Shown here one piece after another: positions 4,059-20,976 of a stretch of 21,744 nucleotides of DNA. This stretch comes from a virus. The notes beneath the pieces were generated by a model that ran no database searches, was not told the DNA's origin, and worked only from the letters and a program-made list of their open reading frames with translations. The number at the start of each line of letters is the position of its first letter. Within the stretch, counting starts at the first letter, position 1. The stretch spans positions 1 to 21,744 of the IMG/VR virus record IMGVR_UViG_3300027985_000977. The stretch is one strand, 5' to 3'. Both the position numbers and the translations under genes were made by a program.

Positions 4059-5195
4059 ATGAGCACCCCGATCGACCTCATGGACCAACTGATCACCGTC
4101 AACGTGGCCCTGTCCGGTGTCCCGGTGTCCCGCGCCGGCTTCGGCACGGTCATGCTCGTGAGCCCCAACGCGGCGCCGGTGTCCGGGCTCGTGCTCACCT
4201 ACACGAGCGCGACGGCCTCGACCTCGCTCGCCTCGGACCTCGGCTCCGGCGTCATCAACGCGGCCATCCAGGCGGCCGTGCTCAAGGGCTTCGCCCAGAG
4301 CCCCCGCCCCGCCGTCATCAAGGTCGGCAAGATCCCGGCCTTCACCCCGGTCCCGGGCCCCTCGACGCTGGCCACCGACATGGCCGCCATCGTGGCGCAG
4401 GACGACGACTTCTACGGCGTCGCCCTCGACGTGAGCGACTACACCACGGTGGGCGCCGACGAGCCCGAGATCGAGCTCCAGGCGAACGCCATGGCGGCCT
4501 GGTGCGAGACGGTGAACAAGGTCTTCCTGGCCAAGACCTGGGATGCCGACGTCTACAACGGCGCCGTCTCCACCGACCTGGCCAGCGACATCAAGGGCAG
4601 CGCCTACGAGAACACGGCGGTGGTCTGGTCGCAGCTCGTCGGTGGCCCCCCCGGGACGGCGGACCAGCCCATCGACATGGCGGCCCTCTGTCGCTGGCTC
4701 GCCTACGACCCCGACACGAAGAGCGCCCCCTTCTCGGCGGGCCTGACCGGGGTCACCCGCTGCCAGCTCACCGCTACCGGGCTGGACCTGAGCGCAGCGC
4801 AGATCGCCGCGGCGAAGGCCAAGTACGCCAGCGTGGCGCAGCTCTACGGCTCGGCGGCGGCCTTCCTCGACCCGGGGCTGAACGGCGCCGGGCGGCAGTG
4901 GAGCGAGGTGCTGAGCAAGCACTGGCTCCAGGCCCGCGTGCGTGAGGACGTGGCCGATCAGGCCGTGGCGCTCGCCGCTCGGGGTGACAAGTTCCCGCTG
5001 AGCGATGAGGGCGTGGCGATCTGCCAGGGCATCCTGGCCCGGCGGCTCCAGCAGGGCGTGACGGCGGGGCACTTCTCGACCTTCGCCATCACGAGCGGGA
5101 CCACGAACTCGACGACCCGCACGATCACGATCGGGGCGAATGCGACCGTGCTGGACTCGGCCCGCAGCTTCACCTTCAACATCAACTTCCTCTAG
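4059..5195 (+). CDS. Tail sheath protein (DUF3383-like)
   Basis: This 378-aa protein starts 'MSTPIDLMDQLITVNVALSG' followed by 'RAGFGTVMLVS', the opening typical of DUF3383 contractile sheath proteins. The middle has 'DDFYGVALDVSDYT' and the C-terminal third contains 'QLYGSAAAFLDPGLNG' and the 'LSDEGVAICQGILARRLQQGV' helix, with a final beta strand 'RSFTFNINFL' suited to the sheath-sheath interlock. It polymerises around the tube and contracts to drive injection. A strong Shine-Dalgarno precedes ATG 4059. The tube gene follows, as in contractile-tail operons. At 378 aa it is a compact, single-core sheath. Confidence 0.83.
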   Translation: MSTPIDLMDQLITVNVALSGVPVSRAGFGTVMLVSPNAAPVSGLVLTYTSATASTSLASDLGSGVINAAIQAAVLKGFAQSPRPAVIKVGKIPAFTPVPGPSTLATDMAAIVAQDDDFYGVALDVSDYTTVGADEPEIELQANAMAAWCETVNKVFLAKTWDADVYNGAVSTDLASDIKGSAYENTAVVWSQLVGGPPGTADQPIDMAALCRWLAYDPDTKSAPFSAGLTGVTRCQLTATGLDLSAAQIAAAKAKYASVAQLYGSAAAFLDPGLNGAGRQWSEVLSKHWLQARVREDVADQAVALAARGDKFPLSDEGVAICQGILARRLQQGVTAGHFSTFAITSGTTNSTTRTITIGANATVLDSARSFTFNINFL

Positions 5196-5252: not shown

Positions 5253-5696
5253 ATGGGTCTCGAGCGGTTCCTTGTGGCCAAGAGCTACGACTTCAGCGCG
5301 GTCCAGGTGCTCATCGGCGGCATCAAGATCGGCGGCTTCGCCGAGGACTCGGGTGTCGCCATCGAGTACGACGGCGACATCTCCAGCGTCAAGATCGGCG
5401 CCGACGGCGAGGCGTGCGTGTCGCGCCTGCCGCTGCCCCCGGCCAACGTCACGCTGACCCTCATGGAGACCAGCGCGAGCAACGCCATTCTGGAGGGGTT
5501 CCTCATCGCCCAGCGGAACACCCCCGCCGGGTGGATCCTGCCCTTCGTCATGCTGGACCCGACGACGGGGGAGAAGGTCCTCTCCGGGCAGTGCTCCTTC
5601 GCAAACCTCCCCAACGTCATGAAGAACCGAGAATCGTCCACCCGCGAGTGGCGGCTGATCGTGCCGCGGCCCGTGACCACCTACGCCACCGAGTAG
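5253..5696 (+). CDS. Tail tube protein (DUF3277-like)
   Basis: This 147-aa protein matches the DUF3277 tail tube pattern: an N-terminal 'SYDFSAVQVLIGGIKIGGFAEDSGVAIEYDG', then 'KIGADGEACVSR', 'VTLTLMETSASNAILEGFL' and a central 'LPFVMLDPTTGEKVLSGQC', ending in beta strands. It would form the hexameric rings of the inner tube. ATG 5253 has a good Shine-Dalgarno five bases upstream. The gene sits directly after the sheath and before the chaperone, the standard order. It ends in TAG. Confidence 0.83.
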   Translation: MGLERFLVAKSYDFSAVQVLIGGIKIGGFAEDSGVAIEYDGDISSVKIGADGEACVSRLPLPPANVTLTLMETSASNAILEGFLIAQRNTPAGWILPFVMLDPTTGEKVLSGQCSFANLPNVMKNRESSTREWRLIVPRPVTTYATE

Positions 5697-5715: not shown

Positions 5716-6162
5716 ATGCGCGAGATGCAGAACCGGACCATCGAGGATGCCGACGGCAAGCCCGTCGAGTACCGCATCATCCCCTTCGGCGCGTCGCAAG
5801 GGATGCGCCTGGCGCTCGAGATCTTCGCCCTCGTCGGGCCCGCCGCGGGCAAGCTGCTCCAGGGCGCGCTGGCGTCCCGCGGGGACTCTTCGGCGCTGGA
5901 CGCGGACGTGGACCTGGACGCCGTGGTGCGGGAGGCTGCGCACGCCCTCGTGGGCTCTGACACCACCTCGCTCATGCGGCGCCTGCTGGCCAACACGACC
6001 CGGGCGGGGCAGTCGCTGGACAACCTGGCGGTCTTCGATGTGTCCTACCAAGGCAACTTCGGGGAGCTCATCGACGCGCTCGTGGCGGTCATCGAGGTCA
6101 ACCGCTTCGTGGATTTTTTCGTACGGCCTGGGCGGCGCCTGCTGAAGGCAGTGCCCGTCTGA
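5716..6162 (+). CDS. Tail assembly chaperone, short form (gpG-type)
   Basis: This 148-aa product is the unshifted form of the tail chaperone, located between tube and tape measure like lambda G. It opens 'MREMQNRTIEDADGKPVEYRI' and is mostly helical, with a middle 'DLDAVVREAAHALVG' and 'LVAVIEVNRFVDFF' near the end. It has no membrane segment. Such chaperones coat the tape measure protein before tube polymerisation. A slippery heptamer near its 3' end (6114-6120) allows a -1 shift, so residues 136-148 are unique to this short form. Shine-Dalgarno AGGAG precedes ATG 5716. Confidence 0.8.
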   Translation: MREMQNRTIEDADGKPVEYRIIPFGASQGMRLALEIFALVGPAAGKLLQGALASRGDSSALDADVDLDAVVREAAHALVGSDTTSLMRRLLANTTRAGQSLDNLAVFDVSYQGNFGELIDALVAVIEVNRFVDFFVRPGRRLLKAVPV

Positions 6163-6398
6163 GGCTGCCCCAGCGGGCGAAGGACCTGGGGGCGCTCTTC
6201 CGCTGGGACGAGCGCCTCATCTTCCGCGTCTGGGGGCTCCACCCGGGGATCTCGCTGGTGGAGATCCAGCGGGACTGGAGCCTGAGCGACCTGATCCTCG
6301 CCTCGGCCCAGCTCGAGATCCAGGCCGAAGAGCAAGCCGCAGCGCACGAGGCGGCGCGTGAGAAGGCAGAGCGCAGCGCTGGGCCACGGGGGCGATGA
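5716..6398 (+). CDS. Tail assembly chaperone, -1 frameshift fusion (gpGT-type)
   Basis: A -1 shift at 6114-6120 joins the first 135 residues of the short form to a further 92 codons that are open without a stop from 6120 to 6395, giving about 227 residues. The stop TGA is at 6396-6398. The extension reads 'RTAWAAPAEGSARLRLPQ', then 'LGALFRWDERLIFRVWGLHPG' and a charged helical tail 'EEQAAAHEAAREKAERSAG'. It has no start codon and RBS of its own and fills what would otherwise be a 232-base gap before the tape measure. Its stop overlaps the tape measure ATG (6395). In the lambda model the T part binds tube subunits. The feature spans both frames, so a simple translation of the interval will not work. 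Confidence 0.75.
6114..6120 (+). other. Programmed -1 frameshift slippery site T TTT TTC
   Basis: In the gpG frame the codons are GAT TTT TTC, so the heptamer is T TTT TTC, a textbook X XXY YYZ site. Both Phe tRNAs can re-pair in the -1 frame as TTT TTT. About nine bases downstream (6130-6155) a two-part stem can form: GGGC with GCCC outside and GCCT with AGGC inside. A run of six T is conspicuous in this GC-rich sequence. Confidence 0.8.
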
Positions 6399-8041
6399 TG
6401 ATCATCCGCGAGTTGTTGACAAAGTTCGGCTTCGATGTTGACAATGGCGCCCTGGACAAGCTCAGCAAGCAGGTGGACGGGGTCAAGACTGGACTCAAGT
6501 ACGCCTCGGCCGCCGTGTCGGCGTTCGGTGCGGCGATGAGCGCAGTGGCGGTCAAGACGGCCCTGGACGGCGACAAGTTCGCCAAGCACTCCAAGCGGAT
6601 CGGACTCACGGTCAGCGAGTACCAGCAGCTTGACCACGCTGCGCAACTCTCCGGCACGTCCATCGAAGAGATGCAGACGGGCATCCGTCGGCTCGCGATG
6701 ACCATCGACGGCGCAGAGCGGGGCATGAGTACGGCCGTGGACACGGCCAGACAGCTCGGCGTCTCGTTCCGCAACGAAGACGGCACCATGCGAGGCGTCT
6801 CCGAGGTCATCGAGGACATCGCGGACAAGATCGCAATCCTGCCGGACGGCCTGCAGAAGACCGCCCTCGCTCAGGCGGCCTTTGGTCGTGGCGGAAACGC
6901 CATGATCAACATGCTGAACGAGGGAGGGGAAGGTATCCGCCGGATGCGGGCCGAGCTGGAAGAACTCGGCGGGGAGATGGACGAGAAGACGGCCAAGGCG
7001 TCGGAGAACTTCATCGACGCTCAGCGCCGCGTCTTCATCTCGACGCGTGGCCTCATGTACGCCATCGGTGGCGAACTGCTGCCGGCGATGACCGAGCAGA
7101 CCAACCAGACGATCGAGTGGTGGAAGGCGAACAAGGACCTGGTCAAGACCCGTGTCCAGGCTTGGGTCAAGGGCATCGTGGCCACTGTCAAGGACCTTAC
7201 CGCATCCGCCCGGCGCCTCTTCGAGCGCATCGACCCCGTCGTCGAGCGCATGGGGGGCTGGGAGCTTCTGCTGCGCCGCCTGGCGGTGGCGGCCGGGCTC
7301 TTCATGGCCGCCTTCGCCACGGCCAAGCTGCTCGCCTTGACCAAGGCCCTCGCCCTGGCGGCGGTCTCGATCTTCAAGCTCGGGCTCAGTGCCGCCCCGA
7401 TCGGCCTGACCGCGGTCGCCCTGCTTGCCCTCGGCCTGGCGATCGAGGACGTCATCGCCTACTCGCAGGGCGCCGACTCGGTCCTCGGCCGGCTGGAGAA
7501 GCGCTTCGAGAGCGTCAAGACGGCCGTGGACGCGGCCAAGCTGGCGCTCAAGGACCTCAAAGAGGCCCTCGGGATGCAGACCCCGCTGAGCCCCGACCGG
7601 CGCCTGGTAGGCGACCAGCAGATCCCCAGGGTGCGGGCCAACCGCTCGCAGGCGGCTGTCCTCTGGGACGGCGTCACCGCCGGGATCGGAGAGTTCCTCA
7701 AGGGCCCAGAGGTGACCGGTGCACTGCGCGGCGCCTTCCGCGGCGTCGGGCTCATGCCCGAGAACGCGGACGCAGCGGTCTTCACCCCAGACCTTGGCCT
7801 CCTCGGACGGCTGGGGGCCGGGCCCGCCGGATCCGGCACCATTCCGATCCGGCGCGCCGAGACGGCCATGCCGCCCATGGCCGCCCCGCAGACGACGATC
7901 ACGGCGCCCGTCACGGTCAACGTCACGCAGCCCGGGGCCACCCCCGAGCAGGTGGGCGCAGCCGTGCGCGAGGGCGTGCGCGAGGGGCTCAGCACTGAGC
8001 TGCGGCGGGCCGGCAACAACCTGCGCCAGTCGGAGCAGTAG
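6395..8041 (+). CDS. Tail tape measure protein
   Basis: This 548-aa protein opens 'MMIIRELLTKFGFDVDNG' and 'LDKLSKQVDGVKTGLKYASAAV', a typical tape measure N-terminus. It continues with 'HSKRIGLTVSEYQQLDHAAQLSG' and 'LAQAAFGRGGNAMINMLNEGG', repeated in many tape measure proteins. A hydrophobic stretch at about residues 292-350 could insert in the host membrane during ejection. The C-terminal part is Pro/Ala-rich, then 'VTVNVTQPGATPEQVGAAVREGVREGL', also common in the family. It sets tail length; 548 residues imply a short tail, about 80 nm at 0.15 nm per residue. Starts at ATG 6395 or 6398; the first overlaps the stop of the frameshifted chaperone. Confidence 0.9.
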   Translation: MMIIRELLTKFGFDVDNGALDKLSKQVDGVKTGLKYASAAVSAFGAAMSAVAVKTALDGDKFAKHSKRIGLTVSEYQQLDHAAQLSGTSIEEMQTGIRRLAMTIDGAERGMSTAVDTARQLGVSFRNEDGTMRGVSEVIEDIADKIAILPDGLQKTALAQAAFGRGGNAMINMLNEGGEGIRRMRAELEELGGEMDEKTAKASENFIDAQRRVFISTRGLMYAIGGELLPAMTEQTNQTIEWWKANKDLVKTRVQAWVKGIVATVKDLTASARRLFERIDPVVERMGGWELLLRRLAVAAGLFMAAFATAKLLALTKALALAAVSIFKLGLSAAPIGLTAVALLALGLAIEDVIAYSQGADSVLGRLEKRFESVKTAVDAAKLALKDLKEALGMQTPLSPDRRLVGDQQIPRVRANRSQAAVLWDGVTAGIGEFLKGPEVTGALRGAFRGVGLMPENADAAVFTPDLGLLGRLGAGPAGSGTIPIRRAETAMPPMAAPQTTITAPVTVNVTQPGATPEQVGAAVREGVREGLSTELRRAGNNLRQSEQ

Positions 8042-8049
8042 GGGGCACC

Positions 8050-8652
8050 ATGGGCATTGGCAGCGAGGAGGTCATCGCCCTGCGGGGCCCCGTTCTCTTC
8101 GACATGACCGGGACCGAGATCCTCACCCTCGACGCCTCGATCACCCAGGAGCACGGGCTCTCGTGCGAGGTCACCGACCACCCCGTCGAGTCCGGGGCCA
8201 ACGTCTCCGACCACGTCCGCATCAACCCCATCGCGCTGCGGATCACCGGCGTCGTCTCGGCCTACCCCTTCGCAGACGACACCGCCCCAGTGGGCCGTGA
8301 GGTGGACGCCTGGGGCAAGCTCGAGTCCATGGTGGGCCAGGTCTTCGAGGTCTCGACGACCCTGCGGCGCTACCCCAAGATGGTGCTCCTGCGGGTCGAC
8401 GTGACCCGAGAGCGGGGCGTCACCGACCTCGAGCCCAAGCTGGAGCTCCGGGAGATCCGCACCGTCTCGCAACAGAGCGTGACCCTGCCCCCGGACCAGA
8501 TCCGTAAGAAGCCGCAGAAGGCCAGCGGGCAGGGAAAGGCGGACAGCGGGCGCACGTCGGGGAGCGCGGCGGACGCAGCCCAGGCCGCAGCGACCCGCCG
8601 ATCCATGGCCGCCGCCCTTCTGGACGCCGTGCTGAAGTCCTCGACGCCGTAG
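8050..8652 (+). CDS. Dit-like baseplate protein
   Basis: This 200-aa protein contains 'ILTLDASITQEHGLSCEVTDHPVESGANVSDHV' followed by 'PIALRITGVVSAYPF', the core signature of Dit-like baseplate N-terminal domains in myophages ('TDHPVExGxxxxDHV'). It then runs 'LESMVGQVFEVSTTLRRYPKMVLLRV'. The last 50 residues are Lys/Ala/Ser-rich and probably flexible. The protein would form the ring joining tube and baseplate hub. The RBS is weak (GGGGG). It follows the tape measure by eight bases. Confidence 0.72.
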   Translation: MGIGSEEVIALRGPVLFDMTGTEILTLDASITQEHGLSCEVTDHPVESGANVSDHVRINPIALRITGVVSAYPFADDTAPVGREVDAWGKLESMVGQVFEVSTTLRRYPKMVLLRVDVTRERGVTDLEPKLELREIRTVSQQSVTLPPDQIRKKPQKASGQGKADSGRTSGSAADAAQAAATRRSMAAALLDAVLKSSTP

Positions 8653-20273: not shown

Positions 20274-20597
20274 GTGACCGCCGATCTGATCATGGCGTTG
20301 CTCTTCGCCCTGGCGGCGGGCGCCGCTGGTGTCTGGGGCTGGATGGAGCGCGCCTCCCGGCTGAGGCTCCAGGCGGCGGCCGCGGACGCTGAGCAGCGGG
20401 CCGAGGCCGCCCTCGTGGCGCAGGGGGCAGCCGAGGCTCAGGCCGAGCTCGAGCTGGCCCGCAACGACATGGAGGACCTCGACGATGATGCCTTCGCTGC
20501 AGCTGTTGATGCTGCTGACGCTCGCCTCGGCCTGTCCGGCGCTCGCCCTCGCTCAGACCTCGCAGGGCTCGCCCGGCGGGAGGGTCTCGTCCACTGA
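20274..20597 (+). CDS. i-spanin-like protein (Rz-type)
   Basis: A 107-aa product from GTG 20274, three bases after the holin stop. It has a single N-terminal TM ('LIMALLFALAAGAAGVWGW', about 5-23) and then an Ala/Glu-rich helix 'RLQAAAADAEQRAEAALVAQGAAEAQAELELARNDM', the layout of Rz-type inner-membrane spanins. Its final 113 bases are overlapped in the +1 frame by the next gene, the arrangement known from Rz/Rz1. No clear Shine-Dalgarno is visible, so coupling to the holin is likely. Confidence 0.6.
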   Translation: MTADLIMALLFALAAGAAGVWGWMERASRLRLQAAAADAEQRAEAALVAQGAAEAQAELELARNDMEDLDDDAFAAAVDAADARLGLSGARPRSDLAGLARREGLVH

Positions 20598-20976
20598 GGC
20601 GGCCCTTGCCCTGGCCGGCGTGGATCCACCCGAGCTTGAGCCCGTCCCCGCCGTGGAACCCAGCCCCCCGGCCCTCGTCCCCACGCGCTGCGACGCGTCA
20701 GGGGTCTGCCACGTCGCCCGCCCCCGGCTCGAGCGCCTTCTTCTGGCCGCCACGGTGGAACTGCCCGGCTGCCAGGAGCGGCTACGGGAGGATGGCGAGC
20801 GCCTGGTGTCCCTTCGGCGTGACCTCCTGGTGAGCGCCAGGGAGGCGGCTACGGCGGGACAGCGGATGGAGGCAGACGGTCCCCCGCCGTGGGGCTGGGT
20901 AGCCGTGGGGGGCGTGACGGGGGCGCTTCTGGGGGCTGCGGTGGCGATCCTGGCGGTGAAGGCGGCGAAGCCCTGA
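20485..20976 (+). CDS. Overlapping o-/u-spanin-like protein, signal peptide plus C-terminal TM
   Basis: This 163-aa protein starts at ATG 20485, nine bases after GGAGG, inside the i-spanin-like gene in the +1 frame. Its N-terminus is a signal peptide ('LLMLLTLASACPALALA' then Gln). Cys17 in 'LASAC' is a weak lipobox; the alternative is ordinary cleavage after 'LALA'. A Pro-rich section (48-66, 'DPPELEPVPAVEPSPPALVP') resembles Rz1-type outer spanins. A helical part with Cys69, Cys75 and Cys96 follows. The C-terminal 'WVAVGGVTGALLGAAVAILAVKA' (138-160) is a TM segment, as in one-piece u-spanins. The last codons AAG CCC TGA are part of an 18-bp direct repeat, and a terminator follows. Confidence 0.6.
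   Translation: MMPSLQLLMLLTLASACPALALAQTSQGSPGGRVSSTEAALALAGVDPPELEPVPAVEPSPPALVPTRCDASGVCHVARPRLERLLLAATVELPGCQERLREDGERLVSLRRDLLVSAREAATAGQRMEADGPPPWGWVAVGGVTGALLGAAVAILAVKAAKP

Follow-up and report, generated by a model that had tools for sequence, protein, structure and literature searches.

The window analyzed here, a 21,744-base IMG/VR virus record with a GC content of 70%, carries structural genes of a contractile-tailed phage, as identified by profile matches. On the + strand, a DUF3383-type tail sheath gene (4059–5195; phrog_205, 2.6e-33; DUF3383) is followed by a KPP10_Orf10-type tail tube gene (5253–5696; 3.9e-10), a tail assembly chaperone gene (5716–6162) and a tape measure gene (6395–8041; phrog_8125, 2.5e-44); further genes encode a Dit-like protein, a Pam3 gp18-like plug, an E217 gp41-like hub and baseplate J. 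The chaperone gene thus lies between the tube and tape measure genes, as in G/GT-type loci, and its 148-aa, G-like 0-frame product matched PF21822 Phage_TAC_15 with 55.8 bits (8.8e-15; curated cut-off, 22) and phrog_1613 (6.3e-13). A profile search of solved structures returned nothing of note, and a structure predicted from the chaperone sequence alone was of low quality (mean pLDDT 44) and was kept out of fold searches. Elsewhere in the window, at 20274–20976, two overlapping open reading frames, one with an N-terminus of the membrane type and a coiled-coil-like sequence (20274–20597) and the other with a signal-like N-terminus (20485–20976), could be an overlapping spanin pair.

The codons GAT (6112), TTT (6115) and TTC (6118) of the chaperone gene place the heptamer T_TTT_TTC at 6114–6120 in the phase of the gene, as an earlier note on this DNA had claimed, with 42 nt from the heptamer to the end of the 0-frame stop codon. 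A ribosome shifted by −1 would restart at CGT 6120 and read 92 codons to the TGA at 6396–6398, which overlaps the tape measure ATG (6395–6397). The predicted fusion, with the junction ...NRFVDFF-RTAWAAPAEGSAR..., comprises 135 + 92 = 227 aa, and the stretch between the 0-frame stop codon and the tape measure gene (6163–6394) measures 232 nt; the coordinates and numbers stated in the earlier note proved correct, the spacing of the stem excepted. The overlap of the extension TGA with the tape measure ATG suggests translational coupling of the two.

Because a GC content of 70% makes long open frames common, the open frame by itself is weak evidence; codon usage, which is independent of openness, is better evidence. 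The codon-usage score of 6163–6394 in the −1 frame was +0.30, compared with 0.42 ± 0.12 for genes and −0.85 ± 0.14 for off-frames, and the coding signal, judged by codon usage and by GC at each codon position, was restricted to the −1 frame. These data show that 6163–6394 is coded in the −1 frame, in line with the proposal that the 232 bases before the tape measure read as protein. The same stretch might instead be a separate small gene with its own start and no frameshift, and in several records (for example, Erebus product25 and GZ7) part of it does stand as a hypothetical gene of its own. However, GTG 6258 is the sole ATG, GTG or TTG in the extension frame; it lacks a good ribosome-binding site and would give 46 aa, and both the coding signal and the homology to the closest relative described below start upstream of it. 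A separate gene would also leave the in-phase heptamer unexplained, and we consider this alternative very unlikely. The heptamer of lambda, G_GGA_AAG, also occurs in phase at 8532–8538 in the Dit-like gene, where it opens a −1 frame of 368 codons; this frame does not look coding, and the site was rejected as probably due to chance.

The codon usage of the window makes T_TTT_TTC very unlikely to have arisen by chance. Among the 118 Phe codons of the listed genes, 3 are TTT, one of these three lying inside the heptamer, and the number of in-phase T_TTT_TTN heptamers expected in 148 codons is about 7.7e-5 if codons are assumed to be independent. No other A/T-only XXXYYYZ heptamer was found in the window. 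Upstream of the heptamer, a GAGG lies at a distance of 16 nt in the window, and an Erebus-like clade of relatives (L004, L011–L014, L022, L023 and L029) has a GGAG about 11 nt before it; the spacing in this clade is near that of the dnaX stimulator, and conserved codons (CAG GAG) may suffice to account for it.

Downstream of the heptamer, the stem proposed in the earlier note is present as a predicted fold (6125–6178; −33.4 kcal/mol), but the heptamer is separated from the start of the best fold by 4 nt and not by the nine bases that had been claimed. Its z score was −1.9, 8 of 200 shuffled sequences folded equally well, and so did about 2% of the 60-nt stretches of the window. Across 32 loci, the mean z score of the downstream structure was −0.5, with strong structure in some loci only, the window included, and a conserved downstream stem was therefore rejected as part of the site. 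Since the stem is not conserved, and since P2 and the P2-like phages studied in PMC3091744 have been reported without downstream structure, this possible stimulator is probably not essential.

We explored the conservation of the arrangement in related phages and prophages, which were reached via searches with tail and capsid proteins; single-sequence searches of contig collections with the chaperone, extension, capsid and baseplate J returned no relatives, and phage records gave no match for the chaperone or the extension. The closest relative found was L053 (IMGVR_UViG_3300014656_000383), obtained with the capsid alignment A4, with identities of 52% for the major capsid protein, 50% for the sheath, 51% for the tube and 38% for the chaperone. 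In L053, T_TTT_TTC is likewise in phase at the 42-nt stop distance, the −1 frame is open and its TGA overlaps the tape measure ATG; the extensions of L053 and the window are homologous (7e-5). None of the phage records searched came near the roughly 50% capsid, sheath and tube identity of L053, and the window phage and L053 may belong to an undescribed group.

The earlier note had named the heptamer and the open frame in relatives among the features on which its proposal would stand or fall, and on this point the proposal held. The −1 frame reached at least 110 nt beyond the 0-frame stop codon in all 52 related chaperone loci, a set that includes some near-duplicates, and an in-phase canonical XXXYYYZ heptamer was present at the junction in 46 of the 52. 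These heptamers were mostly T_TTT_TTN, the others being C_CCT_TTT, C_CCT_TTG, C_CCA_AAG, G_GGA_AAT, G_GGT_TTT and A_AAT_TTT; the six loci without a canonical heptamer had G_GTT_TTT (L008 and L051), only U_UUU (L037 and L046) or nothing clear (L050 and L052). Where the tape measure start was annotated, the extension usually ended within about 15 nt of it, with exceptions that include Spp001, AbTJ and MD-2021a, as well as 13VT501A and PhiPLPE, in which other genes intervene before the tape measure. The +1 frame reached the tape measure in none of the seven loci compared. Loci found with the fusion as query are biased towards those that keep the extension; among the loci reached via other tail or capsid proteins, the extension was present in 18 of 18 and a canonical heptamer in 14 of 18. 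At the level of sequence, these results establish the arrangement and its conservation in relatives.

The same comparison bears on two further explanations. The window is a metagenomic contig and homopolymers are prone to errors, so that an error in the T run, made in sequencing or in assembly, might have split one continuous gene; dozens of loci, those of isolated phages included, show the same shift at the same place and in the same direction, which refutes an error at the level of the family and leaves it a negligible chance in the window. Alternatively, RNA polymerase might slip on the T run and shift the frame in a fraction of the mRNAs; the slippery site is a T homopolymer, and the polymerase and ribosome routes would give an identical fusion protein. 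However, at six bases the T run is short for slippage during transcription, and the −1 frame of many relatives comes with non-homopolymeric sites (for example, C_CCT_TTT and G_GGA_AAT), a pattern that fits tandem tRNA slippage; we regard the polymerase route as extremely improbable.

We then compared the extensions with catalogued domain families. The extensions of relatives (for example, L024 1575–1817 and L003 3349–3609) matched Pfam PF21829 DUF6889 in 8 of 16 cases at E values up to 0.1 and PHROG 4364 in 15 of 16, both families being labeled in the catalogues as of unknown function. Several records list the frameshift-encoded domain as a separate hypothetical gene, and DUF6889 and PHROG 4364 appear to catalogue a frameshift-made domain as if it were one. 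The window extension is too divergent for DUF6889: it gave no match to PF21829 and stayed below the curated cut-off. Its similarity to a wider extension profile was weak, with an hhalign probability of 6%, and ranked 9 of 5001 against residue shuffles, which is suggestive of membership in the wider extension family. Considering the extensions and the sites together, we somewhat favor a joint reading in which, throughout this family of contractile-tail chaperones, frameshifting persists through turnover of the slippery site (T_TTT_TTN, C_CCT_TTT, G_GGA_AAT, A_AAT_TTT, G_GTT_TTT and, in some loci, no canonical heptamer) and the DUF6889/PHROG 4364 extension is a T-domain that binds the tube and normally arises by frameshifting alone.

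Programmed −1 frameshifting that yields a G/GT-like pair of chaperones is, with high confidence, the best explanation of the sequence features of the window. One start would then serve two tail assembly chaperones: the majority of ribosomes would stop at 6162 and release the 148-aa protein, and a minority would slip back by one base on T_TTT_TTC, where the two Phe-tRNAs could re-pair on TTT TTT, and continue from CGT 6120 (extension, 6120–6398) into the 227-aa fusion with its extra, T-like C-terminal domain. We infer both the slippage and its rate. The roles may follow those in lambda: the N-terminal part that occurs in both products would bind the tape measure protein, and the C-terminal domain, made rarely, would recruit subunits of the tube, its presumed partner, so that tube assembly would start on the tape measure. 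The locus is almost certainly a well-supported further example of a mechanism already known from lambda, P2 and many relatives, and the known picture of tail-length control is unchanged. The analysis corrects the annotation of the window phage and of many relatives, Pam3 included, in which the extension is omitted or called hypothetical, and it offers a candidate function for an uncharacterized family of domains (DUF6889/PHROG 4364).

In lambda, G and GT share the part that binds the tape measure protein, and binding of the tube subunit falls to the −1 part (PMC5009743). The earlier note had taken lambda as its model, and a chaperone pair of the G/GT type is supported: the likeness seen here lies in the gene order and the two-product chaperone (PMC5009743), and lambda differs in its slippery site, G_GGA_AAG, and its non-contractile tail. 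The slippery sequence of the window does differ from that of lambda, as had been noted, yet it is of the P2 type and not unusual, since P2 E/E+E' shifts at TTTTTTG (PMC3091744). P2 resembles the window in its contractile tail and in a −1 shift (T_TTT_TTG) between the tube and tape measure genes that needs no stem (PMC3091744); the last base of its heptamer is G, whereas that of the window is C, its products are 91 aa (E) and 142 aa (E+E'), and the two are likened here by arrangement. In an HK97-similar tail assembly chaperone cluster, shifting was measured at 7% (PMC3711429). For Vandenendeviridae and Andersonviridae, a 2025 paper on phage Adele described a conserved −1 frameshift in the chaperone, with the motif GTTTTT, proposed from conservation (PMC12846349); these families share with the window a conserved −1 extension between chaperone and tape measure and differ in their motif, only L008 and L051 among the loci analyzed here being of that type. 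Pseudanabaena phage Pam3 (ON014755) has an in-phase T_TTT_TTC like the window and a −1 frame that runs to 13 nt past the tape measure start; its record annotates the 0-frame chaperone only and omits the extension. Mulock (MN098327) and Magia (MT701587) carry a homologous module of sheath, tube, chaperone and tape measure with a −1 extension up to the tape measure start; they are distant from the window in sequence and differ in their sites, G_GGA_AAT_TTT_TTG in Mulock and C_CCT_TTT in Magia, and their records annotate a 'tape measure chaperone frameshift product' (PMC7883833).
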